Of a stretch of 21,598 nucleotides of DNA, positions 1 through 19,900 are shown one piece after another. This DNA comes from a virus. The position numbers and the translations under genes were made by a program. Within the stretch, counting starts at the first letter, position 1, and each line of letters begins with the position of its first letter. The stretch is from the IMG/VR virus record IMGVR_UViG_3300020156_000083, positions 1 through 21,598 of that record. One strand, given 5' to 3'. The notes under the pieces were generated by a model. The model was not told where the DNA came from and searched no databases. It saw only the letters and a list, made by a program, of their open reading frames with translations.

Positions 1-1
1 G

Positions 2-772: not shown

Positions 773-790
773 GTGACATTTTCAGCTTTG

Positions 791-820
791 AAAAAACCCG
801 CCTTGTGCGGGTTTTTTATT
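791..820 (+). terminator. Intrinsic terminator of folD
   Basis: An 11-bp stem (791-801 with 807-817), mixed A/T and GC-rich, encloses a 5-base loop and is followed by further T residues. The A-run on the left arm makes it potentially bidirectional. It begins 19 bases after the folD stop codon. Confidence 0.92.
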
Positions 821-971
821 GTTTGAGAAAAAACTGTAACCGTTCGCCGGAAACCCCTCTTTTTACAGGCCTTTTCACGAGATTTTCAGCTCGTTCAAAC
901 AACCATCGACAGATCTTCAGCCATACTCCTAGTATTATTTTTGGGTTTTGCTATGTGGTTCTGGGTGGTGG

Positions 972-991
972 ACCCCAATGTTTATTGGGGT
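972..991. repeat. Perfect inverted repeat (hairpin)
   Basis: ACCCCAAT at 972-979 pairs with ATTGGGGT at 984-991 around a four-base GTTT loop. It is followed by only three T residues, so it is a weak terminator candidate at best. It lies inside the gene-free junction region and could instead be a protein-binding site. Confidence 0.6.
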
Positions 992-1037
992 TTGCCTACC
1001 CTGCGACACCCACTGATATGCTGCGAAACACATGCAG

Positions 1038-1055
1038 TGGTACAAAAATTGGTAC
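1038..1055. repeat. Direct repeat TGGTAC-N6-TGGTAC, possible integrase-site element
   Basis: Two identical TGGTAC hexamers lie 12 bases apart, centre to centre, separated by AAAAAT. Short directly repeated motifs with helical spacing are typical of integrase arm-type sites beside attachment cores. That use is inference from position next to the suspected junction. Confidence 0.3.
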
Positions 1056-1152
1056 GAGCTTTTTCCCTTCTGCGGCGTCCTGCCGATTGAACACCAATCC
1101 AAAATCCTACAGTTCGTCGCTTCACCCTCGCCCGCCCTTATTGCCTCGATTA

Positions 1153-1168
1153 CTGTATATACAAACAG
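1153..1168 (+). promoter_or_regulatory. LexA (SOS) box
   Basis: The 16-mer CTGTATATACAAACAG keeps the invariant CTG-N10-CAG frame and matches the E. coli/Pseudomonas consensus CTGTATATATATACAG at 14 of 16 positions. It ends 19 bases before the GTG start of the next gene, where bound LexA would block the promoter or early transcript. It predicts DNA-damage induction of the two-gene unit 1188-2300. Confidence 0.88.
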
Positions 1169-1187
1169 TAATCAGCAAGGCATCCCC

Positions 1188-1550
1188 GTGGACAACCTCA
1201 TAGAAGACACCGACGATTGGCTCGGTAACCCGACCCCGCTCGAAACCTGCCGACACCAGCTCAGGATGTACGAAAACGAATTCGAAGCGCTCACTCTCAA
1301 GCTGCAGCGGGCACTGGAAAATATTCAGGGACTGATCCAAGACAATGATGCGCTCATTCAGGAGCGGAACTCTCTGAAGGCAAAGCTTCAATATGCCGAG
1401 GGGGATTTACTGAGCGAAAAGCGAAGGCTCGCCGACATCGAGCACAATAGAAATCATCTGTTCGATGAGAACCAGCGCCTGCTCAGAGAAGCCCGAGATC
1501 GGGAGGAGTGGGGATTTCATTGCGAATGTTGCGCCGAAAAAGGTTTGTGA
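1188..1550 (+). CDS. SOS-regulated coiled-coil protein of unknown function
   Basis: A 120-residue protein. The GTG start at 1188 is chosen because AAGG lies 7 bases upstream and the LexA box would fall inside the gene with any earlier start. Residues about 1-25 are acidic with a TDDWLGNPTPLE stretch. From about residue 30 to 105 the sequence is a continuous charged heptad-like helix (many E/K/R/L/Q), strongly suggesting a parallel coiled coil. The C-terminus ends in a short Cys-rich tail with CECC, which could bind metal or form disulfides. No enzymatic motif is visible and I do not recognise the family. It lies 54 bases upstream of the SRAP gene on the same strand with no terminator between, so the two are probably cotranscribed from the LexA-controlled promoter. 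Confidence 0.75.
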   Translation: MDNLIEDTDDWLGNPTPLETCRHQLRMYENEFEALTLKLQRALENIQGLIQDNDALIQERNSLKAKLQYAEGDLLSEKRRLADIEHNRNHLFDENQRLLREARDREEWGFHCECCAEKGL

Positions 1551-1604
1551 CGAAGCCAGCGCGGGCGGGTCTACGCTGAATCAGATCCATCCGAGGGCAT
1601 GGCA

Positions 1605-2300
1605 ATGTGCGGACGACTTTCCCAGTACAGCGGCATTCACGACTTTGTGGCGGCACTGAGCATGCCAAACGCGCTCATCAACTCAACCGGCGAACAGCCC
1701 TTTGAGCGGTACAACGCCGCGCCAACCACTCAGCTTGCCCTCTTCCACCAGGAGGGCCAGTTCCTGCACGCGGACATGGTCCGCTGGGGATGGCGCCCGC
1801 ACTGGGCAAAGGATCGCGCCGCGCCAATCAATGCCCGAGTGGAGAAAGTCGCCCATGGCCCGTTCTTCCGCGCGATATGGCCGCACCGGGCAATCATCGC
1901 GATCAACAACTGGTTTGAATGGGTAGACGAAGGCGGGCCGAAGAAGCAGCCATACCTGATCAGACATCGCGACCAATCCCCGATCCTCTGCGCTGCGATC
2001 GGCCAATACCCAAGCGATGAGCACGGCCCAAGCGAACACGACGGCTTTGTGATCATCACAGCCGACAGCGCCGGCGGCATGGTCGATGTTCACGATCGGC
2101 GCCCCGTCGTTCTCCCGCCAGAGCTTGCCCGGGAGTGGCTGGACCCGGCCACGCCGAAAGAACGCGCCGAACAAATGGTGCTGCATGAGGGCGAGCCTTC
2201 CGAGGCATTCGAATGGTTCAAGGTCGACCGCGCCGTGGGCAATGTCCGCAATCAGGGCCCGGATCTGATTAAGCCGATCGAGGAAAACAGCCTGTTCTAA
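1605..2300 (+). CDS. SOS response-associated peptidase family protein (SRAP; YedK/HMCES-like)
   Basis: Members of this family bind abasic sites in single-stranded DNA and form a protective thiazolidine crosslink through the amino-terminal cysteine once Met1 is removed. The second of two in-frame ATGs (1605) is chosen because it places the essential Cys at position 2 (MCGRLSQ) and because GAGG is 8 bases upstream; the ATG at 1599 would bury the cysteine. Key family residues are present: Cys2, Asn76 in INAR, Glu105 in NNWFEW, and His163 in the VHDRRPVVL motif. The 231-residue length is usual for the family, so the protein looks active. It lies downstream of the LexA-controlled coiled-coil gene. 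Its stop codon overlaps the stop of the convergent gene at 2297-2527. Confidence 0.93.
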   Translation: MCGRLSQYSGIHDFVAALSMPNALINSTGEQPFERYNAAPTTQLALFHQEGQFLHADMVRWGWRPHWAKDRAAPINARVEKVAHGPFFRAIWPHRAIIAINNWFEWVDEGGPKKQPYLIRHRDQSPILCAAIGQYPSDEHGPSEHDGFVIITADSAGGMVDVHDRRPVVLPPELAREWLDPATPKERAEQMVLHEGEPSEAFEWFKVDRAVGNVRNQGPDLIKPIEENSLF

Positions 2301-2527
2301 GTCGAAGTCAGCGCTCGCAGACGGTTCTCTGTCGCGTTGTCGAAGATCACGTAGAGCTTATCGATGGTGGACTCGGTTAAGGCCCGCGCCGACTCCAGGC
2401 CATAGACGAACCCCTCAGCCCTAGCGCCCGCCTTGGCTGCGATGATCATCGAATCTGCACGCGCAATCTCAGCCAGAAGCTTGTCTGCAGCGCGCTCAAT
2501 GTTCGGGCTCAGTTCCACACCTTCCAT
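2297..2527 (-). CDS. Small protein of unknown function, last gene of the late operon
   Basis: A 76-residue protein with a good AGGAGG ribosome-binding site 4-5 bases before the ATG at 2527. It is predicted largely helical and rich in Ala, Glu and Arg (IERAADKLLAEIARADSM, then GLESARALTESTIDKLYVIF). There is no signal peptide, membrane segment or metal motif, so it is not an obvious holin or spanin. It follows the endolysin gene by 48 bases on the same strand and is the last gene of the prophage late direction before the convergent SRAP gene. I do not recognise the family. Position suggests a lysis-cassette or operon-end accessory protein, but this is inference. Confidence 0.68.
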   Translation of the reverse strand: MEGVELSPNIERAADKLLAEIARADSMIIAAKAGARAEGFVYGLESARALTESTIDKLYVIFDNATENRLRALTST

Positions 2528-2575
2528 GCCGCCTCCTGCCTTATTGGGATCAGCAACAGGATAGCGACATCTGCC

Positions 2576-2998
2576 TCAGGGCACATCCTTGAAGAAGACG
2601 TGGTTACCGAGTTTCAGCGTCTGTTTGGCCTTTGCCGCCCAGGCCGGCGCCTTGATGCTGGTGGCGTAATAGTGGGTGGCTCCGCCGGTAGGATCCGGCA
2701 CCTTGCCATCGATAACCTGATCAGCAGCAATTCGGCACTGCGCCAGTTCGCGGAACGGGATCTGCTTCACGCCGATCAGGAACTGATAGTTCGGGTCCGT
2801 CTTGTTCCAGCAGCTGAACTGCCATGGCTTTTGGCAGACGCCGGCGTAACCCTCTCCCCACCACGACTTTTCCTTCCCATCGAACACGCGGTTGCGGATC
2901 GTCCAGGCCACGGCGACCTGGCCGGCCGCTCCCTCTCCTCGCGCCTCGCCCCACAGGGTCCGGGCGAGGATGTCTCGGTCTTTATCGGTTACAGGCAT
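2576..2998 (-). CDS. SleB-type cell wall hydrolase (prophage endolysin)
   Basis: A 140-residue protein of the Hydrolase_2/SleB family of peptidoglycan lytic enzymes, probably the phage endolysin. The diagnostic segment LARTLWGEARGEG near the N-terminus contains the expected catalytic glutamate (Glu18). Further conserved features are the IRNRV motif, the CQKPWQFSCWN segment and a downstream GGATHYYA motif. The start at 2998 is chosen because TGGAGAAAAGTT precedes it with suitable spacing; longer in-frame starts overlap the preceding gene and its terminator. There is no signal peptide or N-terminal anchor, so release would need a holin, and none is visible in this window. It lies at the distal end of the late operon after the fibre genes and is preceded by a terminator-like hairpin. 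Confidence 0.9.
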   Translation of the reverse strand: MPVTDKDRDILARTLWGEARGEGAAGQVAVAWTIRNRVFDGKEKSWWGEGYAGVCQKPWQFSCWNKTDPNYQFLIGVKQIPFRELAQCRIAADQVIDGKVPDPTGGATHYYATSIKAPAWAAKAKQTLKLGNHVFFKDVP

Positions 2999-3013
2999 AA
3001 CTTTTCTCCAGGC

Positions 3014-3040
3014 AAAAAAAAGCCCGCTCAGTGGCGGGCT
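3014..3040 (-). terminator. Intrinsic terminator-like hairpin before the endolysin gene
   Basis: On the - strand a 7-bp stem AGCCCGC/GCGGGCT (3040-3034 with 3027-3021), with a 6-base loop, is followed by a run of seven T residues. It overlaps the stop codon of the fibre-assembly gene and ends 16 bases before the endolysin start. It would reduce endolysin transcription unless late transcription is antiterminated. Confidence 0.85.
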
Positions 3041-3380
3041 ATTGGGATTGAGGGAGCGCGGGCCAATCAGGGACATAGGGCCAGCCCTCGCGCTCTGGCG
3101 TTTTGCTCAGCGCGATCAGGTATCGTTTCCAAGCCTTCCAGAGCGCCCGGTCTTCTTCGGTGATCTCGTCCAGGTCTACCCCGGCCTGCAGAGGGCTGAT
3201 TGCGGTGTTGGCCTGCTCGATCAGCAACCGCAAAGCCGCCATGGAATCCCGATTCTGGTCATCAAGTGCAACTTTCTCGATTAACCATGCGGGTATCTCG
3301 TCGACCAGCGTTTCGCCGGGATCAATCGGCCATCCGGGCTCAACGCCTCGCCATGAGTTTTGCGTGATCGCGTAAGGCAT
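3039..3380 (-). CDS. Tail fibre assembly protein (chaperone)
   Basis: A protein of 113 residues resembling the small tail-fibre assembly proteins found directly downstream of Pseudomonas prophage fibre genes. They begin with a YAIT...WR motif (here MPYAITQNSWRGV) and end with a Trp/Pro-rich segment preceded by a helix (ALWKAWKRYLIAL, then EREGWPYVPDWPALP). Such proteins help fold or trimerise the adjacent fibre. I prefer the ATG at 3380, which has GGAG 8 bases upstream. The ATG at 3386 forms an ATGA overlap with the fibre stop but sits only 2 bases after GGAG. Both starts keep translation coupled to the fibre gene. Confidence 0.85.
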   Translation of the reverse strand: MPYAITQNSWRGVEPGWPIDPGETLVDEIPAWLIEKVALDDQNRDSMAALRLLIEQANTAISPLQAGVDLDEITEEDRALWKAWKRYLIALSKTPEREGWPYVPDWPALPQSQ

Positions 3381-3382
3381 GC

Positions 3383-4567
3383 TCATCGCTCCATCCCGTA
3401 ACCACAAACATCGATAGTCGCCGAACCACCAGCAGCGGCGACCGCGTATGTGATAGCCATGTTTCCATCCATCACGAAATCAAACTGAACACGCGCACCC
3501 GCGTCGGCGATCATCATCGGAGCGGAGCCTGCGGCCGGGACGGAGATAAATACGACCTGGCCGGCGGCGCTCACCCGGAGGACAACCGATTGGCAACCCT
3601 GCGGAACGACTGGACCGAGTCCTACCGCTGTGTAAGCCGTGGCAGTGCCCCCTGACAGGCGCCGGAATGGCGTGATGCTGGTGTTGGTCGTATAGAAAAT
3701 CATGTTGGTAGCCGAAAGCTGGAAACCGTAAAGGGTCCCGCCTGCACCGGTTCTCAGCGCACAAATAAATCGGCGCGAAGAATCACCCGCTTTCGTTCGA
3801 GCTCTTCCGAAATACGGCGCGCTGTAGATTGTTGGCGAAAGCTCGATGGCCGCAACACCCGCGTTTTCGTAGAGATACGCGAAATAGAAAACGTCAGGGG
3901 TCAACCCACCGATACCTGAAATCGTGATGGGCGTGGAAAGTCTAAGGTTCTTGCCAGTGCCCGGAATGAACGCCGCTCCCGGCGAAAAGGTGATCGAGCT
4001 GCTGCTGTTCCAAGTTGGAATCAAGCCCTCGATGTAACCGTCAGATACGCCGTTCGTTTTGTTTAGGGAGGCCTGAAGCTTGCCGAATGCTCCAATGATG
4101 CTGTCCGTTGCGACCACCGCACCAGACGCGCCGGCGTCCAGCCCGGTAAGGACCGAAGCCAGTACGCGCGGGTTTGTGAGGTATTTGTTGGTGATGCCTT
4201 CGAGGATACCGTCCGAGTTGGACAGATTCAGCGCGGCGCGCACGCCAGCCTGCGTGGGGTCATTCCCCAGCACCGCCAGCACGCCACCAAACTGATTGGT
4301 CAGCGCTCGAAGAGCATCCGCCGAATCCTTGGGATAACCCTGCATGGGCGCAATGGCATAACCACCTGCCGCGTTCGTCGCACCGATGTAGTTCGGCGAG
4401 ATCGAAAGCGTGGTGTTGCTCGCGATGTTCGTCACCTCGTACCAGCCACCGTCAGGGCCGCGGAAAGCATCGCCGACCCGGGAGTTGGTAACGAATGATG
4501 TGCCCGTGCCGTTCACGGTATTGGAATTTTGGACGACAGAAACCGTCCCGGCTTTGTACCAGGGCAT
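3383..4567 (-). CDS. Tail fibre protein
   Basis: A 394-residue fibre protein. The first 100 or so residues (MPWYKAGTVSVVQNSNTVNG..., GDAFRGPDGGWYEVTNI..., YAIAPMQGYPKDSADALRAL) form the conserved attachment domain seen on many Pseudomonas prophage fibres. The centre and C-terminus are rich in Gly, Ser, Thr and Ala, beta-strand like, and probably carry the receptor-binding part, which is variable in such proteins. The start at 4567 is chosen because TGGAG lies 7 bases upstream and it gives the usual N-terminal sequence. The fibre would bind the host surface at the tail tip. The gene lies between two small tip-associated genes and the assembly chaperone. No frameshift is visible. Confidence 0.9.
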   Translation of the reverse strand: MPWYKAGTVSVVQNSNTVNGTGTSFVTNSRVGDAFRGPDGGWYEVTNIASNTTLSISPNYIGATNAAGGYAIAPMQGYPKDSADALRALTNQFGGVLAVLGNDPTQAGVRAALNLSNSDGILEGITNKYLTNPRVLASVLTGLDAGASGAVVATDSIIGAFGKLQASLNKTNGVSDGYIEGLIPTWNSSSSITFSPGAAFIPGTGKNLRLSTPITISGIGGLTPDVFYFAYLYENAGVAAIELSPTIYSAPYFGRARTKAGDSSRRFICALRTGAGGTLYGFQLSATNMIFYTTNTSITPFRRLSGGTATAYTAVGLGPVVPQGCQSVVLRVSAAGQVVFISVPAAGSAPMMIADAGARVQFDFVMDGNMAITYAVAAAGGSATIDVCGYGMER

Positions 4568-4592
4568 CGAATATCTCCAGTGAGTTTGAGAG

Positions 4593-5255
4593 TCAGGCCA
4601 GCAATTTGGCGCAAAGGAAAGGACGGTGCCCCTGATCGGTCCACGCGTTGGATGCAAGGCTGTACATCAGAATTCGACCATTGGCGTAATCAACGCCGAG
4701 CGCACAGCTGCCACCGGACGAGTTGTTGTGACAGGTCATCGTGAAGGGGTTGATTGAAACGTACTCGCCCGCCCCGAGCGCCTTGTTAATGCCCCAGATA
4801 TAGCGCTGGCCAACGCTCAATTGCTCGGCGCCGAGATACGTCCAGTTACCGGCAGCGAACGTCACCACAACCGCCGGCGCTCCGCTGTCGTAGCAAAGCA
4901 CGCCGTTCTGATCCCACAAGCGCAGGCCGTAAGTGGATGTACCCATAGACGCCCAAGCAGCCACGAAATACTGACCGCTAAGTGACTCGTTGACTTTGGA
5001 GGCGTTCATCGAGAACCCGGTCCAGTTGCCCGGTCCACCGGTAAACCACACCGAATACGGCACCTGGATCAATCCCGTTTGATCAGGTCGAATGAACACC
5101 AGGGGCGGGTCTTGACTAGTCACGGCACGCGGAAAGGTGGCTGTGGCTGTAGCAACGCCGGAGTAAGACCCCTTCGTCAACATGCACAGCCTGGGCGCAT
5201 CTGAATCGATCTGAACAAAAGCGTTGTCGTTGATGCTCTGGAATCCGAAACTCAT
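4593..5255 (-). CDS. Tail tip/fibre-associated protein of unknown function (larger paralogue)
   Basis: A 220-residue protein, soluble, beta-rich, with many Gly/Ser/Thr/Asn residues and no membrane segment. Its first ~30 residues (MSFGFQSINDNAFVQIDSD) resemble the start of the product of the next upstream gene (MALFGLRVFDPSGQLAMDT). Both also carry a similar later strand (PPLVFIRPDQTG / CVFMIIPTRAQD), suggesting related folds. I believe this corresponds to a DUF6453-like family found beside J genes, but I cannot confirm that. The start overlaps the upstream stop as ATGA (5252-5255), indicating translational coupling. Location between J and the fibre points to a tail-tip accessory or receptor-interaction role. 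This is inference. Confidence 0.8.
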   Translation of the reverse strand: MSFGFQSINDNAFVQIDSDAPRLCMLTKGSYSGVATATATFPRAVTSQDPPLVFIRPDQTGLIQVPYSVWFTGGPGNWTGFSMNASKVNESLSGQYFVAAWASMGTSTYGLRLWDQNGVLCYDSGAPAVVVTFAAGNWTYLGAEQLSVGQRYIWGINKALGAGEYVSINPFTMTCHNNSSGGSCALGVDYANGRILMYSLASNAWTDQGHRPFLCAKLLA

Positions 5256-5608
5256 GTCGAAAACCTTATCGCGTAAGCCTTGGAAACAATCCGCGACTGG
5301 AGAGTCGAAGCGCTGGTCGACGGGTTTTTCGGCAGAACGACCACCTGACCGACTGACGTTGTTACGTAGGGGTAAGAACGAATGTTACCCGAGGAGTCAT
5401 TTTCTGATGGCTGCACGTCCTGCGCTCTCGTTGGGATGATCATGAACACGCAATTAGCCGGATTGAATCCGGGGATGCTCAGGGTGTAGCTGGGCGTGGT
5501 ACCGCTAAAATCGATCACGCCCTGCCAGATCACCTGATAGGTAAAGCTGTTGGTGTCCATGGCGAGCTGACCGCTCGGATCAAAGACACGCAGGCCAAAT
5601 AACGCCAT
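5252..5608 (-). CDS. Small tail tip-associated protein (shorter paralogue)
   Basis: A 118-residue protein that begins 3 bases after the J stop codon and ends in an ATGA overlap with the next gene. It is predicted beta-rich and has no signal peptide. Its N-terminus and one central strand resemble the 220-residue neighbour downstream, so the pair may come from duplication or form a heteromer at the tail tip. Position directly after J is shared by small J-associated proteins in many siphoviruses. The function is not known to me. Confidence 0.8.
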   Translation of the reverse strand: MALFGLRVFDPSGQLAMDTNSFTYQVIWQGVIDFSGTTPSYTLSIPGFNPANCVFMIIPTRAQDVQPSENDSSGNIRSYPYVTTSVGQVVVLPKNPSTSASTLQSRIVSKAYAIRFST

Positions 5609-5611
5609 TGA

Positions 5612-8600
5612 TTACCCCAGATAGCCGAGACGGACACGCAGCACGTTGTTGGAGTCGTAGACCGAGACGTTCAGTGAATTGATCACCAGCCGCCCCTGCC
5701 CCGGTACGATACCGTTGATCTCCAGTGTTCCGTCTTTATTGAGAATCCATCCCTGTTGCCCAGCGATGTAATTGATTGAACTGATGTAGCTTCCGATCTT
5801 CGCGTTGGTGATCGTTCCGTCCTGGATGAACGCTGAGTTCATGAACACCTGGCCGCCCTGAACCGCAAACGGCACCGCAATGGCACCGCCGGCGATGGTG
5901 TTGACGATGGCGAACCGGTCCGCGCTCACCAGAAACTGGCTCTGCAAACCGGCGCCGGTGTTTTCGATGCCGAGCCCAATACCAGCCGCAACGTACTGAC
6001 CGTTCGCCGTGACCTGCATTTTCACCGACCACATCGTCGACAACTTGCCGTCGGTGTTCGCAAAGGCGGTTGAGGTTTCCTGAATAGCGGCTGAGTTCTC
6101 GCCGATTTTCACGTTGACCTGGGTGATCGCCTGCGCAGTGGCTTCCTTGTCGGTGGCGACGACTCGTCTAAGGTCCGTCACGTTCGCCGCGCTTTCCGCC
6201 ACAGCCGCATCAAGGGTCGTGAGTTTCTGTGCCGTGGCAAGATTTTCGGACGCCCTGACCCGATCTTCGTTCGCGATCGCCGCAGTGCTGCTCCACCCCT
6301 TCAGGGCGTCGTCCATATCTCCCTTACCATCATCATCGCGAAATGAGGCGCGCAGAGCGTCGAACGCAGTCGACTGCGCCGTGACCACGCCGTCAAGCTC
6401 AGTGATCTCGGCTGTATTGGTCGCCACTTGCTGGGCAAGCCCATTGGCCGTTTCCACCGTCTGACCTACGTCGAGCCAGTAGAGCGAATTCGGCGGTGGG
6501 GTTTTGATAGGCACCGGGCCGGTGGCCTGATAGATCCGCTTGCCCTGCACCACCAGGTCGTACTCTTCGTAGGTGGCTTCCGGGTCGTAGCCTTTCAGTC
6601 CGTCGAGCGCATCGATCTGCGCCTGCAAGCCTGGGATCTTCTCGATTTCATCAAGCAGATCCTGACCGAGCTCCGTTTCGGTGATTTGACCGGCGATCAT
6701 TTCCAGAATGGCAGCGGCGTCAGAACTGGATTGCCCCTGCACGCCAAGCCCGATCGGATACCAAGGCCCGATGTTGCCGATTTTGTCGACGATTCGTCCC
6801 CAGAAATACAGGGTCACGCCGGCGCGCAGGCCGAGCATGGAGAAATCACTTTGCGGATAGGCCAGGTCTGTCAGCTTCGTTGCCGCTTCCAGCGAGGTCG
6901 TGGGACCGTACCAGATCTCTGTGCGCTGGCTGTCCTCCGCGCCAGCAGGGAAACCCCACTTCAAATAGATGCCGAACAGCAATGGCGTGGCAGTCAGGTA
7001 GCTGAGCGCCGGTGGCAACCCCTGCTTACCGCTGAGGTTGGTCAGGATCGAGTTGCGCCAAATCGACGAGATGTCGAAAGCGCTTACCGCGCGGACGCGG
7101 GCCACGTATGCGCCAGCATAAATACCGACCACGTCCACATTGGTCATACCGGTGCGCTGCAGCTTGATCCAGTTGCCGCTGTCTTTGCGCCACTCCACGT
7201 CATAGCCGACTGCGCCATCCACGGCTGGCCAACTGATCGTCATGGTGGCCACGGCCAGCCCCTGGACAACCGACGACGTCGACGACAGCGAAACGCTCGC
7301 CGGTGCCGGCACAACGGTGATCGGAATCACGCTGATCGGTCGTTCTTCCAGGCGCGCGCCGGTGTCGATGAAAGCGAACTTGCTTGGCTCGAACTGCAGC
7401 GCGCTGATTTCATAGTCCCCCTCGGTAGTGCGCTTGGTGCGCAGCACCCGATACAGCGGGATCGCCAGGTCATTGGCATCAAGCGCCCATTGAAGTTGCG
7501 CCACCGGTGCCTGACTGTAGTTTGTGGTAACTGTTACAGCTCTGCCGTTGACGCTCTGCACGGTGCGCCCTTCAGCGCGGCCGCCCGGCAGGTTGATGAT
7601 CAGCCGATCACCGGCCTTGGCTTGTGTGTCGCGATCGAGGGTGATGACCCGACCAGCCGCCGCCGATATCCGGCCGCCCACTTCACGCCCCGCCAACAGC
7701 GAATCCGCGACAGGGATGATGTGCCCGGGCAGAGGGATCACGCCTTCCATGCCGGTTTTGAAAGAGACGGTGCGGTCTTGGTTGTTGCTGAGGATCGCCC
7801 ACTTGCCGCGGCGCTGGGCCTCAGATGCGCGGGTGCAGCCAATGGCGCTCAGTTCGGTCGGGCGATCGCCGTAGCGGCGTTGCAGATCCAGATCAGCGAA
7901 CGGAATGACGTCAGTATCGTAGTTGTTCGCCGGGTTGTCGTAGCTCACCAGCGCCCGGGTGTAACGCGTCTTCGCCGAGGCACTGCCATAGGAGAACTTG
8001 CCGTCGATGACGTTCGACCGGGTGAACACATAGTCGAAGTCCTGCGCGCGCGGCATGTCAGCCTGCATCACCAACTGGCCCTGTGCCCAGTACGTCATGC
8101 CCCGATAAATGGCCGAGATATCGCGCAGCAGCGACCACGCATCGGCCTTGCCCTGCAGGTTCATGTCGCAGAGGAAGCGTGGTTCCTGACCGCCCAACCC
8201 GTTCGGAACCCACTGGTCGCAATATTGGGCGATCCGGTAAAGCTCCCATTTGTCGACCATGAATGATTTGATGCGCTTGCCCAGGCCGAAGCGGTCCTCG
8301 GTGCAGATGCCGTAGGTAATCCACGCCGGGTTATTGGTCCAAGCCGACTTCATCGAACCGTCCCACGTCCCGGTATAGGTGCGCTGGATCGGGTCGTAAT
8401 TGCTCGGCACCATCCAGCGGCGCGCCTTGCACTTCACGGTGACGGCCGGGATGTTGGTGAACTGCTCGGCGTCGAATTCGATATAGAGCAGCGCAGTGTT
8501 CGGGTAGCGCAGCTTGGCGTCGATCACCTCGGTGTAACCGGCCACCAGCATGGTGTCGGCGATCTTGTTGGTGTTCTGGTTCGGCGTAAGGCGGCGCACA

Positions 8601-9175
8601 CGGATCTGCCAGCCAGTTGTTGCATCCGGTAGATCGATGCGGCGTGAGCGCTCGTAGCGCGTGGTGGTCTTGCCGTCGACGGCGTCCACCAGCACCTGCT
8701 GATAGGCGCCGCCATCGGTGGCGACGTCGATCGCGTACTCGATCCGGTAGCCGCCGACATTGCCCTGGTCATCCGAGCGTTGCAGTGCCGGCCACGCCAA
8801 CCGCATGCGCACGGCGGAAAGCTGGGTGTTGGTGATCGAGCGAACCCACGGCGAATCGCTGCGCAGCTCAATGTTCAGCGACGTCTCGTTCTCTACGGAC
8901 GGAATGCCCGGGATGTAGGTCTGATCCACCGAGCCCGGGCGCCAGTCCCACTTCACGTTAGGGAAGTTGTAGTTGCCGCTGGCATCGCGGATCGGCGTGT
9001 TGTCCAGGTAGATGTCGTAATCGGTTGGGACGCTGTCGAACTCACCCTCGCCCACGGCGATCAGGAGCTTGGCCAGGTTGGTCGAGCGCAGGCTGTCGCT
9101 GGCTTCGGTCGGCGATTTCGGCTTGCTGCTGCCGCCCTTCTCGCCGTGGATATCGATCTGTGCTGCTGCGCCCAT
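5612..9175 (-). CDS. Tip attachment (host specificity) protein, lambda gpJ-like
   Basis: A 1187-residue central tail-tip protein that ends the tail and contacts the receptor. The N-terminal half carries the conserved J core (for example DYDIYLDNTPIRD, EDRFGLGKRIKSFMVDKWELY, WSLLRDISAIYRGMTYWAQG). A fibronectin type III-like domain lies at about 625-700 (TISWPAVDGAVGYDVEWRK). A helical, low-complexity stalk follows at about 910-1040, then a DUF1983-like C-terminal domain (MQVTANGQYVAAGIGLGIE, at about 1050-1130). The ATG at 9175 is chosen because GGAGG is placed 5-6 bases upstream; an earlier in-frame start would run into the terminator hairpin. The length is close to that of lambda gpJ (about 1130). 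In the lambda order it follows L, K and I, as here apart from two insertions. Confidence 0.96.
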   Translation of the reverse strand: MGAAAQIDIHGEKGGSSKPKSPTEASDSLRSTNLAKLLIAVGEGEFDSVPTDYDIYLDNTPIRDASGNYNFPNVKWDWRPGSVDQTYIPGIPSVENETSLNIELRSDSPWVRSITNTQLSAVRMRLAWPALQRSDDQGNVGGYRIEYAIDVATDGGAYQQVLVDAVDGKTTTRYERSRRIDLPDATTGWQIRVRRLTPNQNTNKIADTMLVAGYTEVIDAKLRYPNTALLYIEFDAEQFTNIPAVTVKCKARRWMVPSNYDPIQRTYTGTWDGSMKSAWTNNPAWITYGICTEDRFGLGKRIKSFMVDKWELYRIAQYCDQWVPNGLGGQEPRFLCDMNLQGKADAWSLLRDISAIYRGMTYWAQGQLVMQADMPRAQDFDYVFTRSNVIDGKFSYGSASAKTRYTRALVSYDNPANNYDTDVIPFADLDLQRRYGDRPTELSAIGCTRASEAQRRGKWAILSNNQDRTVSFKTGMEGVIPLPGHIIPVADSLLAGREVGGRISAAAGRVITLDRDTQAKAGDRLIINLPGGRAEGRTVQSVNGRAVTVTTNYSQAPVAQLQWALDANDLAIPLYRVLRTKRTTEGDYEISALQFEPSKFAFIDTGARLEERPISVIPITVVPAPASVSLSSTSSVVQGLAVATMTISWPAVDGAVGYDVEWRKDSGNWIKLQRTGMTNVDVVGIYAGAYVARVRAVSAFDISSIWRNSILTNLSGKQGLPPALSYLTATPLLFGIYLKWGFPAGAEDSQRTEIWYGPTTSLEAATKLTDLAYPQSDFSMLGLRAGVTLYFWGRIVDKIGNIGPWYPIGLGVQGQSSSDAAAILEMIAGQITETELGQDLLDEIEKIPGLQAQIDALDGLKGYDPEATYEEYDLVVQGKRIYQATGPVPIKTPPPNSLYWLDVGQTVETANGLAQQVATNTAEITELDGVVTAQSTAFDALRASFRDDDGKGDMDDALKGWSSTAAIANEDRVRASENLATAQKLTTLDAAVAESAANVTDLRRVVATDKEATAQAITQVNVKIGENSAAIQETSTAFANTDGKLSTMWSVKMQVTANGQYVAAGIGLGIENTGAGLQSQFLVSADRFAIVNTIAGGAIAVPFAVQGGQVFMNSAFIQDGTITNAKIGSYISSINYIAGQQGWILNKDGTLEINGIVPGQGRLVINSLNVSVYDSNNVLRVRLGYLG

Positions 9176-9191
9176 GCTTTCCTCCAGGCAT

Positions 9192-9214
9192 AAAAAAACC
9201 GCCTCGCGGGCGGT
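9192..9214 (-). terminator. Intrinsic terminator-like hairpin before the J gene
   Basis: On the - strand a 6-bp GC-rich stem (9214-9209 with 9203-9198), with a 5-base loop, is followed by seven T residues. It lies 17 bases before the J start codon and downstream of the small gene 9508-9774, which may be its natural partner. J expression would then need read-through or antitermination. Confidence 0.85.
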
Positions 9215-9305
9215 GTGGGTGTCCATACAGCGTGGATGAAATGCCAGTAGCGACCACGTGCTTTGGGGGAGTAATTTTCTGACCTCTCACAACCAAGGAG
9301 CGGCC

Positions 9306-9551
9306 ATGTCTATCAGAAGCCTCGCAAGAAACCTTCCGAAAGACCCTGATAACGCAGACTGCGTGCTGGGTTGGGGTGTCGTGCAAAGCACGCCATGGCG
9401 ATTCGTCGACATCTATGCTTCAAAAGAGGCAGCAGAAGCCGAGGCCAAATCTCGAGGGCCAAGGTATCAAGTCGAATACGGATCTCACCGACTTGGCTCC
9501 GATGATTTTATGGGTGGGCTGGAGCAGCCTTTGCCGGCTCACTCAAGCTGA
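9306..9551 (+). CDS. Small protein of unknown function, antisense to the late operon
   Basis: An 81-residue protein on the + strand inside an otherwise - strand operon. Support: a strong AAGGAG ribosome-binding site 5 bases before the ATG at 9306, ordinary residue composition, and location in a gap between I and J that no - strand gene fills at 9215-9507. It contains VLGWGVVQSTPWRFVDIYAS followed by KEAAEAEAKSRG, a compact alpha/beta pattern, with no signal peptide or membrane segment. Its 3' 44 bases overlap the convergent gene 9508-9774. It is a candidate moron expressed from its own promoter, though I could not identify a good promoter. I do not recognise the family. Confidence 0.6.
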   Translation: MSIRSLARNLPKDPDNADCVLGWGVVQSTPWRFVDIYASKEAAEAEAKSRGPRYQVEYGSHRLGSDDFMGGLEQPLPAHSS

Positions 9552-9774
9552 AACCCATGCGGCAGTTGCCAGAGATAAGAGCGGCGGTAAGGCCTGGCTT
9601 GCCGCAATACTTTCGCGTGTAGCCGCTTGGCGATGAGCATTTGCCAAAGAAGCGCTCTCGATGGATTTCGCGCCCGTTGTCCAGAACGGCCACCACCGCT
9701 TCGTCACCACAAACCACTCCACCTTCAAGTCGATGCAGGTCGTGGATGGTGATGCTGTAGGTCACTTTGGTCAT
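9508..9774 (-). CDS. Small protein of unknown function between I and J
   Basis: An 88-residue protein whose ATG overlaps the stop of the I gene (ATGA at 9771-9774), strong evidence that it is translated as part of the late operon. The N-terminal half reads like a small beta-sheet domain (TKVTYSITIHDLHRLEGG, EAVVAVLDNGREIHRERFF). Three of its four cysteines lie in the second half. The C-terminus is low-complexity (SEPAKAAPAHP) and overlaps the 3' end of the opposite-strand gene by 44 bases. No known domain is recognised. The terminator-like hairpin at 9192-9214 lies downstream of it. Confidence 0.65.
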   Translation of the reverse strand: MTKVTYSITIHDLHRLEGGVVCGDEAVVAVLDNGREIHRERFFGKCSSPSGYTRKYCGKPGLTAALISGNCRMGFSLSEPAKAAPAHP

Positions 9775-10379
9775 GCCTTATCCTCCGCCAGGATCGAGGC
9801 CGAGATGATCATCCCGCCCCACCGGCGTTCGCCGATGCAGATCGGTACCGGATTGCCGCTGGCTGTGGTGTTCTTGGCGCTGCCGAAGGCATAGGACGGT
9901 GAGTTCTCGGGGGATGCGCTTTGCGAGAGCCCCTTTGCCTGCGGACTGAGCATTTGGATCACACCGCCTGCGGTCGAGGCGATACCGCCTGCGATCAATG
10001 CCGCACCTTGAGCCGTGGTAGACCCGTAGGCGAAAAAACCAACGGCGATTAGGACGATTCCCAAAACGGTCTGCATCAACCCTGCGCGCTTGCTTCCCGA
10101 GACGACTGGGACGATTCGGACCTCACGAGTACCACCCAGATCAAAACCCTCTACCGCTTCGTTCTTCCGATTGCGAAAGATGGCGAATCGCATCCCTAGC
10201 CGATCAAGACGCCGGATCTCATCCTCAAAACCCTCCAGCGTCACCTTCAACGCCTTCAACGCCTCCCAAACACGCTTACTGTCCACTTGACGACGATGGA
10301 CTCGCCCAAACTTCTTGGCCAATGAGCCAGATAGAAGGATCGTAGTCATTGGATTGTAAGTAGCTGCAACGTCAGCCAT
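9771..10379 (-). CDS. Tail assembly protein, lambda gpI-like
   Basis: A 202-residue protein with the layout of lambda gpI. An N-terminal soluble domain begins TTILLSGSLAKKFGR, with FRNRKNEAVEGFDLG further on. A hydrophobic Gly/Ala-rich segment lies at about 105-145 (two membrane-like helices, VLGIVLIAVGFFAYG and AALIAGGIASTAGGVIQML). The C-terminal tail has GNPVPICIGERRWGG, typical of this family. It is needed for assembly of the tail tip with J, K and L in lambda; whether it stays in the particle is unclear. The start at 10379 has GGAG 6 bases upstream. In lambda it directly follows K; here 1.8 kb of accessory genes intervene. Its stop overlaps the next gene's start. Confidence 0.9.
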   Translation of the reverse strand: MADVAATYNPMTTILLSGSLAKKFGRVHRRQVDSKRVWEALKALKVTLEGFEDEIRRLDRLGMRFAIFRNRKNEAVEGFDLGGTREVRIVPVVSGSKRAGLMQTVLGIVLIAVGFFAYGSTTAQGAALIAGGIASTAGGVIQMLSPQAKGLSQSASPENSPSYAFGSAKNTTASGNPVPICIGERRWGGMIISASILAEDKA

Positions 10380-10394
10380 GTTCTTCTCCGAGCA

Positions 10395-10419
10395 CAAAAA
10401 AGCCCGCTGATGCGGGCTT
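10395..10419 (-). terminator. Intrinsic terminator after the lipoprotein gene
   Basis: On the - strand an 8-bp stem AAGCCCGC/GCGGGCTT (10419-10412 with 10407-10400), with a 4-base loop, is followed by a T-run. It lies just downstream of the lipoprotein stop and 16 bases before the I start. It closes the accessory cassette, a typical moron feature. Confidence 0.87.
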
Positions 10420-10429
10420 GGGAATGCAT

Positions 10430-10831
10430 TTAAATTGCCGTGGGTGAAATGTCGAAATTGTCGCCCGACAGCGTGATTCGACGCCTGACCGTCTCACCGG
10501 TTTTTACATCAACCTCGCGCTCAACCAAACCCCATCCACCACATGCGGCGCTCGGCTTGATTCCAAGGATATGTTTTCCGGCCTTTACTCCAAACCGAGC
10601 CACCTCGCCTGAGGCGAATTCAGCTGCCAGGGTTCCATCAATGTACAGCCGGTAATTGCAGCCTGATCCATATAGGCCGCTGTCACGCGTAACAACAAGC
10701 TGGGATTCAGACTTCCCACTGAAGGCGAAAAGCCGATTTCTCGGCACTGGATCAGCCTTGTCGGCCGGAACTGGCGAAGTCGCACACCCCGCCAACAGCG
10801 CTACCGCCATCGCTCCTACGATCAATTTCAT
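10430..10831 (-). CDS. Lipoprotein, probable lysogenic-conversion (moron) gene
   Basis: A 133-residue protein with a short hydrophobic signal peptide ending in a lipobox (LLAGC, lipidated Cys16). Residue +2 of the mature protein is Ala, so by the Lol rule it should go to the outer membrane. The mature part is beta-rich (CNYRLYIDGTLAAEF, ARFGVKAGKHILGI) with two further Cys residues that could form a disulfide; it resembles a small Ig/PEGA-like fold. The ATG at 10831 is preferred over the GTG at 10840 because AGGAG lies 8 bases upstream of it. The gene has its own AT-rich upstream region and its own terminator. Lambdoid phages carry small lipoproteins such as Cor near tail-tip genes that block receptor use by related phages. 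A similar role here is inference. Confidence 0.83.
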   Translation of the reverse strand: MKLIVGAMAVALLAGCATSPVPADKADPVPRNRLFAFSGKSESQLVVTRDSGLYGSGCNYRLYIDGTLAAEFASGEVARFGVKAGKHILGIKPSAACGGWGLVEREVDVKTGETVRRRITLSGDNFDISPTAI

Positions 10832-10840
10832 GCAGGTCAC

Positions 10841-10910
10841 TCCTGTGGGAAAGGGCTGGAAGTATTGTACTTAACCTCGCAATAAATCACTTCGAATAAG
10901 ATTACGGCAG
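10841..10910 (-). promoter_or_regulatory. AT-rich leader with candidate promoter of the lipoprotein gene
   Basis: This 70-base spacer is much more AT-rich than its surroundings (22 of 60 G+C in bases 10861-10920, counted by hand). It contains a good -10-like TACAAT on the - strand (10869-10864) inside a palindrome AAGTA-CAA-TACTT (10860-10872), which could be an operator. No convincing -35 element is seen at 16-18 bases, so the promoter call is tentative. Confidence 0.4.
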
Positions 10911-11303
10911 CTACCCTTTACCTACAGTTTCGTTTTGAGAAATTCTGCGTAGATCGTTTAGTACTCGCTCACTGTTGGCGACGTGCAGCTTCGCCTCACC
11001 AGCTCGAAACTCTTCTCGAATATCGTAATCAGCGATTGCTCTCATCTGCTTCTGTTTGCGAATTGTTCGACCTAAAGCTGCTAAGCCTCTACCGGCAAGC
11101 TCATAGCGATAAATCAAGCGTTCGTGTGTTGCGAGATTTTTGTCTGCTGGGCATTGCGGAAGCTTTAGGATTCCGGCTGCAGCTAGTGCTTCGTGGTAAA
11201 GCGCGTAATAGCTTCGGCTTACCGCCGCCCGCGCGCAACACTCTCCATCTGCTCCGGCCAGCTCTTTGGCTAATCCCAACAGATCGCTGCTAGATACCGA
11301 CAT
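10911..11303 (-). CDS. HEPN domain-containing protein (UPF0332-like), candidate ribonuclease toxin
   Basis: A 130-residue all-helical protein. It shows the hallmark AAVSRSYYALYHEAL helix, in which Arg30 and His37 form the R-x6-H motif of HEPN proteins, and the second conserved block MRAIADYDIREEF followed by AKLHVANSERVLNDL. In active HEPN enzymes the Arg and His form a composite RNase site across a dimer. UPF0332/HEPN proteins are often toxins or RNA-targeting effectors in defence loci, but some are not catalytic. The ATG at 11303 is chosen because it starts the family fold directly; upstream in-frame residues belong to the overlapping gene. It overlaps the TPR-like gene by 14 bases, implying coupled translation. 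The DNA is lower in GC than the tail genes, suggesting separate acquisition. Confidence 0.85.
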   Translation of the reverse strand: MSVSSSDLLGLAKELAGADGECCARAAVSRSYYALYHEALAAAGILKLPQCPADKNLATHERLIYRYELAGRGLAALGRTIRKQKQMRAIADYDIREEFRAGEAKLHVANSERVLNDLRRISQNETVGKG

Positions 11304-12183
11304 TGTAGGCGACTCCAATTTCCTTGAGAGAACCCACTGCATGAGGGTATACGCCGATAGAAAAAATACTGTCAATCGGCCCTTCAAACTGCGCCGAAAG
11401 TGCCGTATCGATCTCGCGATCGATGTCAACAAGACGCTCGATATCATCACGAACCACGAAGCGGAACAATATGCCCTCGCCACGCATTGCAAAGACGTCA
11501 TAACCGATGAAGGGATGGTATGACATTTTCTTGACTATCTCGGCTGCGACTGCGAGCCGATCAGAAACTTCGCGATCATTGCCGTTAATTTCTTCGATAA
11601 GCTCAGCGGCACAAGTTATGCGTTCGACATACCCCCCCGTAGATCCGGCTGCTTTATACAGATCTCGAGCGCGTCCAAACAACCCCAAATGAACGCATTG
11701 ATCGGCAACCGCTTCAAGGTCGCGGTGCTTCGCCTTGTCTAGCTTGACTCGCTCAATCTCGTCTATCGCCATTTTTATTTCCCCGCAGATGTAGAGGGCA
11801 TGAGACGCAGAAACGGCTTTGGCAATGGGAGGTAATCCTTCAGCTTCAGCTTGCTGGAACAGCCTCAATGATGCGTCAGGCTTCATCAGATACGCGCAGA
11901 GATACGCCTGCTCATGTAGAACAAATGGACGGCTCGGGTCACCGGACGGAAGTACGGCTAGAAGGCCGTCAAGCTCATTGTGAAGGCGGCGTACCGCTAT
12001 TTGATTCACCACGTGAGTATCAGCGATCGCATCCCACATGGCTCGTCGCTGGTCGGCGAACTCGGCAATAGCGAGCTTAGGCTGTCCCTGCATAAAATCT
12101 GACTCGGAGTTAGAGCGATTGGCAAGCTTAGTTTCAATCAGCTCGGAGGTCGATACTGGTTGCCTATACACTTTATATCTCAA
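11290..12183 (-). CDS. TPR-like helical-repeat protein, partner of the HEPN gene
   Basis: About 297 residues if translation starts at the TTG at 12183, seven bases upstream of which lies the stop region of the K gene. GAGGTGAG in the K 3' end could serve as the ribosome-binding site. The first ATG in frame (12093) would give 267 residues but has poor Shine-Dalgarno support, so the start is uncertain. Residues about 92-190 look like consecutive TPR-type helix pairs (EQAYLCAYLMKPDASLRLF, ALYICGEIKMAIDEIERV, ADQCVHLGLFGRARDLYKA). The C-terminal third is a mixed alpha/beta region without a recognised motif. No membrane segment or nuclease motif is seen. Low GC (hand counts of 28/60 and 29/60) separates it from the neighbouring tail genes. 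It could be antitoxin, sensor or scaffold for the HEPN protein; this is inference. Confidence 0.75.
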   Translation of the reverse strand: MRYKVYRQPVSTSELIETKLANRSNSESDFMQGQPKLAIAEFADQRRAMWDAIADTHVVNQIAVRRLHNELDGLLAVLPSGDPSRPFVLHEQAYLCAYLMKPDASLRLFQQAEAEGLPPIAKAVSASHALYICGEIKMAIDEIERVKLDKAKHRDLEAVADQCVHLGLFGRARDLYKAAGSTGGYVERITCAAELIEEINGNDREVSDRLAVAAEIVKKMSYHPFIGYDVFAMRGEGILFRFVVRDDIERLVDIDREIDTALSAQFEGPIDSIFSIGVYPHAVGSLKEIGVAYNVGI

Positions 12184-12187
12184 GCAC

Positions 12188-12952
12188 TCATCTCACCTCT
12201 TCTGCGCCATTGTGGCGCAGCACCAGCCGCGTACGCTCGAGCCAAGGCCCGCCGAAGACAATGACCTCAGATGGCCTGCCATACAGGTGGTGCAGCAGGA
12301 AAGGCCCAGGTCCGAACGTCGCCGCGTCCTCACCGGGCAGCGCCGGATCGGTGCCGAGGAAAATCCCAGCGTGATTCGGGTAAACGGTGCGCCCTACCTC
12401 CATCACGATCATGTCGCCGCGCTGCGGCTGGTCGACGCGGTAGAAGCCGGCGGCCTCGTAGTTCTCCTCGTACAGGCTGGTGTTGTCCTTGCTCTCCCAC
12501 CAACCATCGGCGCGTTTGAAGGCTTCAAACTCCACCCCCCACTCGCGCTTGTACCAATCGGCGCAGACCTGCCAGCAGTCCCAGGCACCGTGCACGAATG
12601 GCCGTTTCAGCAGCTGTACTTCGCCGGTCGGCACGATGGTGCGCAGATCGCCCTCGGGCCAGCTCAGGATGTGCCAGGGCATGGCCGTGGCCTCGCACAT
12701 GGCGAGGTCGCGCGGTGACGGCCTGCTGGTGGCGTCCGGATGTGAATGGACCACGCCGATCACTTCGCCGATGTCCTCGGCTGCCGCGTACTGCTTGGGA
12801 TCGATCCGAAACTCTTCGTTCGGCTCAGTCGAGACATTGGTGCAGGGGAAGTATTGTTGCTTGCGCCCGATCGCCAGCAGCAGCCCGCAGCACTCTTTCG
12901 GGTACTCGGCCGCCGCGTGCGCCTGGATCGCGCTTAAGATGTGCTTTCGCAT
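12188..12952 (-). CDS. Tail tip assembly protein with JAMM peptidase and NlpC/P60 domains, lambda gpK-like
   Basis: A 254-residue two-domain protein. The N-terminal JAB/MPN domain has the full JAMM metal site: Glu20 in PKECCGLL, His69 and His71 in HSH, and Asp82 (H-x-H-x10-D). The C-terminal NlpC/P60 domain has the catalytic cysteine Cys126 in WDCWQ and His194 in NHAGIFLG. It is needed for tail assembly and probably also for peptidoglycan cleavage during DNA entry. The ATG at 12952 lies 1 base after the L stop. All catalytic residues are present. The gene is of normal length, so the downstream insertion did not truncate it. Confidence 0.94.
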   Translation of the reverse strand: MRKHILSAIQAHAAAEYPKECCGLLLAIGRKQQYFPCTNVSTEPNEEFRIDPKQYAAAEDIGEVIGVVHSHPDATSRPSPRDLAMCEATAMPWHILSWPEGDLRTIVPTGEVQLLKRPFVHGAWDCWQVCADWYKREWGVEFEAFKRADGWWESKDNTSLYEENYEAAGFYRVDQPQRGDMIVMEVGRTVYPNHAGIFLGTDPALPGEDAATFGPGPFLLHHLYGRPSEVIVFGGPWLERTRLVLRHNGAEEVR

Positions 12953-12953
12953 G

Positions 12954-13703: not shown

Positions 13704-13712
13704 GATCGCCCC

Positions 13713-14054
13713 TTATGGATGAAATGCACGCTCAAACGTGGCGGTGAGTTTGAAAACACCGCCGCCCACCGGAGTGGGCACGGGGTTCTTGCAGGTGAAC
13801 AGGCCAAGCTGGCCAAGGGGTGTGGTCCACAGGAAGGCTTTCGCGCCGGCGTGCCGATCGAGGAACGCCATGATCTCCAGCACCTTGGCTTGAGGGCCGC
13901 TGTAGGTGATCGGGTAAGCGTCTTCCTTGTTGTTCGGCCCGTCGCCAACTTCCTGTTTGTAGCCGTCGCCAAACCGCGAGGTGCGCACCCGATAGGAAAT
14001 CTCGGGTGAGTCGCCGTGCTGGGTCGGCCAGGTGAATTTCTCGATGGCCATCAA
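13713..14054 (-). CDS. Minor tail protein M
   Basis: A 113-residue tail tip protein of the lambda gpM/Phage_min_tail family. Visible family features are an early FTWPTQHGDSPEISYRVRTS segment, RFGDGYKQEV, and a C-terminal FKLTATFERAF strand. In lambda it joins the tip after tape measure assembly and supports tube polymerisation. The ATG overlaps the tape measure stop as ATGA (14051-14054), so translation is coupled. Length is typical of the family. Confidence 0.92.
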   Translation of the reverse strand: MMAIEKFTWPTQHGDSPEISYRVRTSRFGDGYKQEVGDGPNNKEDAYPITYSGPQAKVLEIMAFLDRHAGAKAFLWTTPLGQLGLFTCKNPVPTPVGGGVFKLTATFERAFHP

Positions 14055-18095: not shown

Positions 18096-18098
18096 GGC

Positions 18099-18755
18099 TT
18101 ACACCGTGGCCGCGTAGCGAGTTGGGCGACCGGTCAATGCAATGCTGATGACACGGGTCATCAGGTTGTTGCGGGACATGGTCGGTGTCGAAGTGATCGA
18201 CACGTAGCCGTTGTAGATGATGCTGCTGCCGCCAGGAAGGTTGAGCCGGAGCAGGCGCGCTTGCTTGTCATCATCGGCGGCCTCGCAGACCTCCACATAG
18301 GGCTTGGAGGGATCATCGGCAACGGTGATGGTCAGCGTGATCGGATTTTTGGTGGTTGGCATCTGGCGATCATCATCGTCGGCCAGGAAGCCAAAGGTCA
18401 GAAATTGCTGATCGCCGCCGCTGGAGTTCAGCTCGGTGATCTGCGAGATCTCAGTGAAACCAGTCACCTCTCGTACCGAGCCAATGCCCGAGCCGGCCGG
18501 ATACTGCTGGACGTTCACCGTATTCACGTTTTCCAGCGCGAAAGTGCCGCTGGCGATCTCACCGACTCGTACGCCCCGCCCTTCGAGACGGGTCCAGCCA
18601 GAGTTGACCGCAATAACATCGCCTTCGGCCAAGCCATGCGCTGCTGCGGTGGCGACTGCTGGGTTGGCGTTGGTCAAGGCAGTGAATGGGATCGCCGGGC
18701 CGTAAGTGGCAGCAATCTCGAAGGTGGCGCCGTTGGGCATTTGGATGCCGGCCAT
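18099..18755 (-). CDS. Major tail tube protein
   Basis: A 218-residue beta-rich protein in the position of lambda gpV, forming the stacked rings of the tail tube. It shows the repeated beta pattern expected (FTALTNANPAVATAAAHG, DVIAVNSGWTRLEGRGVRVG, FTEISQITELNSSGGDQQFL). The ATG at 18755 (MAGIQMPNGATF) is chosen because GAGG lies about 8 bases upstream; a longer reading would overlap the hairpin at 18782-18803. It is flanked by tail terminator and chaperone genes, the usual order. A high copy number is expected, which fits the separate hairpin-leader at its 5' side. Confidence 0.9.
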   Translation of the reverse strand: MAGIQMPNGATFEIAATYGPAIPFTALTNANPAVATAAAHGLAEGDVIAVNSGWTRLEGRGVRVGEIASGTFALENVNTVNVQQYPAGSGIGSVREVTGFTEISQITELNSSGGDQQFLTFGFLADDDDRQMPTTKNPITLTITVADDPSKPYVEVCEAADDDKQARLLRLNLPGGSSIIYNGYVSITSTPTMSRNNLMTRVISIALTGRPTRYAATV

Positions 18756-18779
18756 GGGTGTGTCCTCTTTCAGAAATGA

Positions 18780-18803
18780 CAAAACCCGCAAAGATGCGGG
18801 TTT
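18780..18803 (-). terminator. Terminator-like hairpin before the tail tube gene
   Basis: A 9-bp stem (18795-18803 with 18782-18790) with a 4-base AAGA/TCTT loop; its T-containing arm runs into a short T-run (TTTTG) on the - strand. It lies between the tail terminator gene and the tail tube start. It is weaker than the other three because the T-run is short, and it may protect the 5' end of the tail tube message instead. Confidence 0.65.
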
Positions 18804-18826
18804 CGGGGTATGCCCAACGGGCGTAT

Positions 18827-19899: not shown

Positions 19900-19900
19900 A

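Follow-up and report, generated by a model that had tools for sequence, protein, structure and literature searches.

Conserved terminator-type hairpins with look-alike leaders before late genes of a Pseudomonas-type prophage, and candidate antiterminators that may allow their read-through

Introduction

Rho-independent terminators are annotated directly before J, the gene of the tail tip and host specificity protein, in the records of the phages N15, HK225 and phiKO2; in phiKO2, another one follows a putative moron and precedes I. The sections drawn on here of two papers deal with morons and boundary sequences (PMC3029335, PMC2629481), and the excerpt used of a third mentions TCTG past terminator hairpins as a conserved feature that is not found in every terminator (PMC8355165). 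AlpA of P. aeruginosa, as presented in the consulted part of PMC7969949, sets the precedent of an antiterminator that does not resemble Q in sequence. Here we analyse the IMG/VR virus record IMGVR_UViG_3300020156_000083, a 21.6-kb stretch (21,598 nucleotides, hereafter the window) that carries on its minus strand the late genes of a lambda-like siphophage, a Pseudomonas-type prophage. Three of these genes, I, J and the endolysin gene, are each preceded by a unit made of a terminator-type hairpin, a run of T and a leader with the ribosome-binding site. We propose that such hairpins are probably intrinsic terminators that a phage antiterminator would overcome during late transcription.

Results

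The first-pass annotation, made from the window alone, had described a hairpin, a T-run and a leader of nearly the same sequence before I, J and the endolysin gene, and a fourth hairpin before the tail tube gene. These elements are indeed present on the minus strand, as follows:

2576..2998, minus strand: endolysin (Hydrolase_2, PF07486)
2999..3014, minus strand: endolysin leader TGCCTGGAGAAAAGTT-ATG(2998), with TCTG-like box and Shine-Dalgarno GGAG
3021..3040, minus strand: endolysin terminator-type hairpin AGCCCGC-CACTGA-GCGGGCT, then T-run; same slot in relatives
5612..9175, minus strand: J, tail tip/host specificity protein
9176..9190, minus strand: J leader TGCCTGGAGGAAAGC-ATG(9175), with TCTG-like box and Shine-Dalgarno
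9198..9214, minus strand: J terminator-type hairpin CCGCC-CGCGA-GGCGG, then seven T and an A; same slot in relatives
9771..10379, minus strand: I, tail assembly protein (phrog_32)
10380..10394, minus strand: I leader TGCTCGGAGAAGAAC-ATG(10379), with the box diverged to CTCG
10400..10419, minus strand: I terminator-type hairpin AAGCCCGC-ATCA-GCGGGCTT, then T-run and a G; same slot in relatives
18099..18755, minus strand: tail tube protein (PF08813)
18780..18805, minus strand: fourth terminator-type hairpin, before the tail tube gene, with TCTG 10 nt past GCGGG

The units show the G+C-rich stem, the short loop and the directly following T-run of intrinsic terminators; at the endolysin gene, eight T follow the C of GCGGGC. 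A TCTG-like box lies 10 nt past the stem at three of the four sites, as CCTG at the endolysin gene (counted from GCGGG) and at J and as TCTG at the tube gene (all read from the sequence), I having CTCG instead. The likeness of the leaders is closest between the endolysin gene and J, which share an exact TGCCTGGAGRAAAG, found at only these two sites in the window where about 0.0003 would be expected by chance (equal base frequencies, our own arithmetic). With up to three mismatches, TGCCTGGAGRAAAG occurs at five window sites against 3.2 expected, which is not significant, and none of the five is the I leader, so that the description as nearly the same applies to the endolysin and J leaders and more loosely to that of I; in several close relatives, the I leader reads TGCCCGGAG. 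A consensus scan of positions 1-20000 yielded 27 terminator-like sites compared with 18.5 (sd 4.6) in shuffles, so that their total is barely above chance, and the four named hairpins are four of the five minus-strand sites whose stems have five or more G-C pairs. RNA folding z-scores were -2.2 for I, -1.8 for the endolysin gene, -3.7 for the tube gene and -0.2 for J. The decisive support for these putative hairpin-leader units is the comparison with relatives.

Relatives were taken from IMG/VR (80 loci with I and 80 with the endolysin gene, among the matches listed) and their gene starts projected by tblastn, on condition that the match began no later than residue five, that a start codon was nearby and that 80 nt of upstream sequence were present. 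After de-duplication, a hairpin with T-run at most 45 nt from the start was found before I in 72/75 relatives, before J in 86/89, before the endolysin gene in 93/94 and before the tube gene in 21/23 (with looser start placing, 21/28 for the tube gene and 67/71 for I). The possibility, raised by the first-pass annotation against itself, that hairpins and leaders are absent or unrelated in close relatives thus does not hold for I, J or the endolysin gene. As for the exceptions, the three at J and the single one at the endolysin gene are units with damaged stems, and those at I comprise one broken stem, one hairpin with a short T-run and one without T-run. Stem types lean by slot, CCGCC prevailing at I (56/72) and J (73/86) and CCCGC at the lysin gene (78/93). 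Other slots carry hairpins in part of the relatives (fibre 13/73, K 5/85, L 5/73, fibre assembly 1/15), and none was detected at 16 further gene starts: U (0/30), G (0/31), GT (0/15), H (0/10), M (0/68), Z (0/8), hh (0/4), g101 (0/1), lipoprotein (0/54), HEPN-like (0/3), p88 (0/8), plus-strand cargo (0/8), p118 (0/60), p220 (0/81), p76 (0/23) and SRAP (0/33).

Both a de novo scan of the relative loci and a pattern scan of IMG/VR revealed the unit before unrelated genes. The leader pattern, which includes T6 and by itself favours hairpins, has at least 120 sites in IMG/VR; among the matches listed, 117/120 have the hairpin and 119/120 a start and open reading frame (ORF), and the genes behind the unit include J, tape measures, sheath, tube, fibres, baseplate, capsid and several unrelated lysins. 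The latter belong to Hydrolase_2, Glyco_hydro_19, Phage_lysozyme, Peptidase_M15_4 and the endolysin PHROGs 873 and 90, one further lysin having a CHAP match under its cut-off. A permuted leader retrieved no IMG/VR stretch, versus at least 120 with the real pattern. Pseudomonas genomes contain 38 leader-pattern sites (in 32/149 genomes) and none of the reversed pattern, and contigs of bacterial genomes contain at least 121 sites, where, among the matches listed, 97/121 have a hairpin and 84/121 an ORF of at least 30 aa. Slot conservation, leader-pattern scans and the permuted control together rule out a chance origin of the units. At five similar genome loci (L421 and four others), a T-run and leader stand before an ORF that is Abi-like by eye, and a hairpin was not found there.

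The nature of the leader was approached with a leader-blind sample of IMG/VR terminators of one stem type (at least 122 unique), 58 of which are followed within 35 nt by a Shine-Dalgarno and a start. Among the matches listed, YGYCYGGAG follows 24/58 of those with a start versus 0/290 control windows, and 0/64 of the start-less ones, the latter partly by construction; the shorter TGYCYG follows 8/64 start-less viral terminators compared with 2/320 controls. TGYCYG also follows chromosomal terminators in 400 kb each of P. protegens (9/54; control 2/270) and P. fragi (6/39; control 0/195); the E. coli sample, of 45 kb with 13 terminators, had no TGCC-type match and is too limited for a conclusion. 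The distance of YCYG from the stem is 10 nt at 32/33 viral sites with a start and 13/14 without, among the matches listed, and 7-13 nt in the chromosomes. As the same box follows chromosomal terminators and terminators without starts, we read the first half of the leader as a terminator tail: the leader is probably a composite of this TCTG-like tail and, in its second half, a Shine-Dalgarno. Several Pseudomonas sites have the whole pattern and no gene, which favours a terminator feature over a start signal. At the Pseudomonas terminators of L402, L404, L488, L493, L507 and L515, TTTTTTATGCCTGGAGAAAAG comes next, mostly with no gene behind, and several of them lie, by eye, directly after an apparent tRNA end. 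A full-text literature search for TGCCTGGAGAAAA matched only papers on other subjects. The idea of a sigma-54 promoter around the T-run and TGCC, judged only by eye, was set aside.

The hairpins stand next to slots that may hold cargo genes, which in the window are:

9306..9551, plus strand: cargo ORF in the I-J slot, on the opposite strand (phrog_4280)
9508..9774, minus strand: cargo ORF in the I-J slot (phrog_38193)
10430..10831, minus strand: lipoprotein cargo, directly upstream of the I hairpin (phrog_890)
10911..12183, minus strand: two cargo ORFs between K and I, one of 297 aa and the shorter one HEPN-like by eye

Neither of the last two has a Pfam family at E 0.001, and a relative of the 297-aa ORF was not found among the compared loci. 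Between I and J, 49/87 unique intergenic sequences measure 55-60 nt and the other 38/87, with 202-1105 nt, hold various kinds of cargo. Cargo is thus present or absent at the same place in relatives, as in morons. Where found, the hairpin of this slot sits on the J side and, in a separate de-duplication, it occurs at 33/35 junctions with cargo and 51/52 contiguous ones. The J hairpin is therefore independent of cargo, and a moron terminator as its only explanation is rejected because cargo-free junctions have it too. The same split gives hairpins at 66/66 (cargo) and 5/5 (contiguous) fibre-lysin junctions. Between L and K, where cargo is rare, 3/5 cargo junctions have a hairpin versus 2/80 contiguous ones (Fisher p 0.001), these two looking spurious; a terminator thus accompanies cargo at L-K, unlike at J. 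K and I are never contiguous (428-4651 nt in relatives, 80 unique), and the 12 shortest gaps all hold a lipoprotein-like ORF by eye. Upstream of the lipoprotein gene, an extended -10 motif, chosen after inspection of the output of a plain sigma-70 scan, occurs in 28/54 relatives (at a distance of 33-37 nt to the start in 27), compared with at most one occurrence per control gene; the window copy lacks it and has TACAAT about 38 nt upstream. In relatives, tail fibre genes have terminators at 13/70 cargo-free junctions, as if marking a swapped module.

A Q-like antiterminator gene, which the first-pass annotation had recommended looking for, has candidates in relatives, namely two families encoded after ninG where the neighbourhood was looked at, some members of one being distantly Q-like. 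The product of the gene after ninG is a phrog_3373 protein (P0001) in Medea1 and a phrog_3412 protein (P0002) in phiAH14a, both PHROGs of unknown function, and no relation was found between the P0001 and P0002 families. Three members are located as follows:

L518:9788-10369, minus strand: family member
L519:20268-20954, plus strand: family member
L727:1327-2004, plus strand: family member

Among 17 long relatives, chosen by length from the 80 I-locus records (L073 and L080, similarly long, were left out), 11 encode P0001-like proteins, seven of them distant (24-28% identity), and the other six P0002-like proteins, the two families being disjoint. The gene follows ninG in the five phages looked at (Medea1, phiAH14a and the relatives behind L725, L727 and L729). 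The distant P0001-like proteins of the last three, of 225 aa and encoded directly after ninB- and ninG-like genes, match phrog_3373 strongly. They also match phrog_304, 'anti-termination protein Q-like', along most of the protein, with E between 5e-6 and 2e-5. The record of L035, one of the three with the phrog_304 match, shares the phrog_4280-like cargo of the window. Conserved sequences follow the candidate genes. For P0002, TTGAC lies within 40 nt after the gene in 37/39 loci (39 unique of 40 examined) and is followed by a conserved repeat and usually by a hairpin; for P0001, TTGACTTCCCG occurs within 800 nt in 52/57 loci (57 unique of 80), with a hairpin-like stretch in 49/57 by a loose pattern. 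Within about 110 nt after two of the distant P0001-family genes, as judged by eye, a conserved stretch precedes a hairpin with T-run. These conserved sequences may be late promoters, and the phage of the window would carry such an antiterminator gene as well.

The late-gene order in the window is capsid end, tube, tape measure, M, L, K, cargo, I, cargo, J, fibre, fibre assembly and endolysin, the record stopping within the capsid gene. The names of several genes rest on Pfam matches and those of U, Z, G and GT on gene order alone. Two plus-strand genes lie at the other end:

2-772, plus strand: host folD (PF02882, PF00763)
1599-2300, plus strand: SRAP-family gene (PF02586), on the opposite strand at the prophage end

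Discussion

We consider it likely, with a probability of about 0.75, that intrinsic terminators at module edges shield late genes in the lysogen and that a phage antiterminator allows polymerase to read through them. The hairpins would stand where variable modules of the late operon begin or end, and the leaders would look alike by virtue of a TCTG-like box about 10 nt past the stem that overlaps an ordinary Shine-Dalgarno. In the lysogen, the terminators would block transcripts started at cargo promoters, for instance that of the lipoprotein before I, from entering essential or lytic genes. During lytic growth, polymerase would start at a late promoter beside the antiterminator gene after ninG, become termination-resistant there and then pass the hairpins. 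Antiterminated late transcription had been one of the explanations offered at first pass; the presence of one or the other candidate family in each of 17 long relatives, with three Q-like proteins by phrog_304, supports it without proving it. Termination by the hairpins and antitermination by the candidate gene products would together account for essential late genes standing behind terminators and provide a plain reason for the look-alike leaders.

Several observations weigh against this interpretation. Cargo insulation alone is insufficient, because hairpins are kept without cargo at J (51/52) and at the fibre gene (13/70). The J hairpin has a weak fold, its unit forming a different structure in the best single-strand prediction, and Proteus phage Pm34 has, by eye, no hairpin before J. 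A plain sigma-70 scan had six matches before the lipoprotein (6/54) and the same number before the lysin (6/94). Regarding the candidates, PF06323 matched the three Q-like proteins (3/17 relatives, none in control genomes) at 0.012-0.04, under cut-off, and PF06530 and PF03589 had no match in 14 and 17 relatives, respectively. P0001 of Medea1 and the whole P0002 family match only PHROGs of unknown function, with no sequence match in Pfam, NCBIfam or PDB, and structure models of the candidates, which are weak (mean pLDDT 64), match no known fold. Finally, a strict scan found terminators within 420 nt after the gene at 8/14 and 11/14 loci of the two families, and a sigma-70 pattern whose -10 box is TANNNT had no match after 28 sampled candidate genes.

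The hairpin-leader could instead be kept alike as a crossover site for module exchange, the I, J and lysin units having a shared recombinational origin, an idea already present in the first-pass annotation that we hold possible and rather doubtful. Hairpins do stand at variable slots and module boundaries, unrelated lysins have one unit in common, the leader pattern recurs in at least 120 IMG/VR stretches as opposed to none for the permuted control, and its 38 sites in 32/149 Pseudomonas genomes (none reversed) include some not before a gene. However, stem types lean by slot, N15, HK225 and phiKO2 combine a J hairpin with a different leader, and the same box follows chromosomal terminators of Pseudomonas. 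The last two observations weaken the view that the look-alike leaders merely reflect a mobile element of common descent: leader similarity need not mean a shared origin, which is not required to explain it.

It is rather unlikely, in our view, that the hairpins reduce the expression of I, J and lysin or define stable ends of the mRNA, the first-pass annotation having also proposed a role in mRNA processing or stability. The conservation of the J hairpin without cargo (51/52) would suit such attenuation or processing, which fits poorly with a hairpin before the gene of the tail tube protein, since this product is needed in many copies. An effect on dose has a parallel in the P22 moron, thought in the part consulted of the epsilon34 paper to affect the amount of tailspike (PMC2629481). 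An RNA switch, in which the leader would hide the Shine-Dalgarno by pairing with the 3' arm of the hairpin, was suggested by the J unit in isolation, whose best fold has this pairing. Compared with swapped partners, 0/300 shuffles reached the pairing at J and 1/300 that of I, J and lysin together (relatedness not controlled), yet the signal was weak at I (31/300) and there was no excess at the lysin (159/300) or in an independent viral set (98/300), which leaves this switch unsupported and very improbable.

Antiterminated passage through intrinsic terminators thus remains our preferred explanation. As a broader and tentative proposal, to which we give somewhat less than an even chance, YGYCYGGAG, with its box 10 nt past the stem, would be a recurrent dual-purpose element at virion and lysis gene starts of unrelated phages that allows module swapping under antitermination, and phrog_3373 and phrog_3412 would be two late antiterminator families of Pseudomonas phages. 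The useful lead is that these two widespread families of unknown function are candidates for that role.

The locus resembles N15, HK225 and phiKO2 in its terminator directly before J and, in the case of phiKO2, also before I. It differs from them in that their J leaders, behind a conserved hairpin, lack TGCCTGGAG, and N15 and HK225 have, by eye, no hairpin before I. Across ten annotated phages, also by eye, a hairpin with T-run precedes J in 9/10 and a hairpin precedes I in five of the nine with I shown. As in morons, variable cargo occupies fixed slots with a terminator after it, and half of the relatives have a promoter-like motif ahead of the lipoprotein; by contrast, the J hairpin stays when its slot is empty. 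The candidate genes recall those of Q-type antiterminators (lambda Q, AlpA) by their place after ninG, the conserved non-coding sequence, the often present early terminator and, for some members of the P0001 family, the distant phrog_304 match, whereas they have no match above a curated cut-off and the phrog_3412 family has no recognised relative; AlpA is likened here by description. The arrangement after these genes resembles pR'-tR' of phage YA3 and the AlpA promoters, as far as the parts used of the two sources describe them (PMC7326022, PMC7969949). The nearest start-associated repeat found is SAS/ESAS of cluster K mycobacteriophages, for which the consulted sections of PMC3203893 report a conserved sequence just before unrelated gene starts, about half with an upstream inverted repeat; its consensus GGGATAGGAGCCC does not occur, by reading, in the window leaders, and its 17-bp imperfect repeats take the place of a terminator with T-run. 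The architecture before I, J and the endolysin gene is real, strongly conserved and of a kind already known in lambda-like phages.

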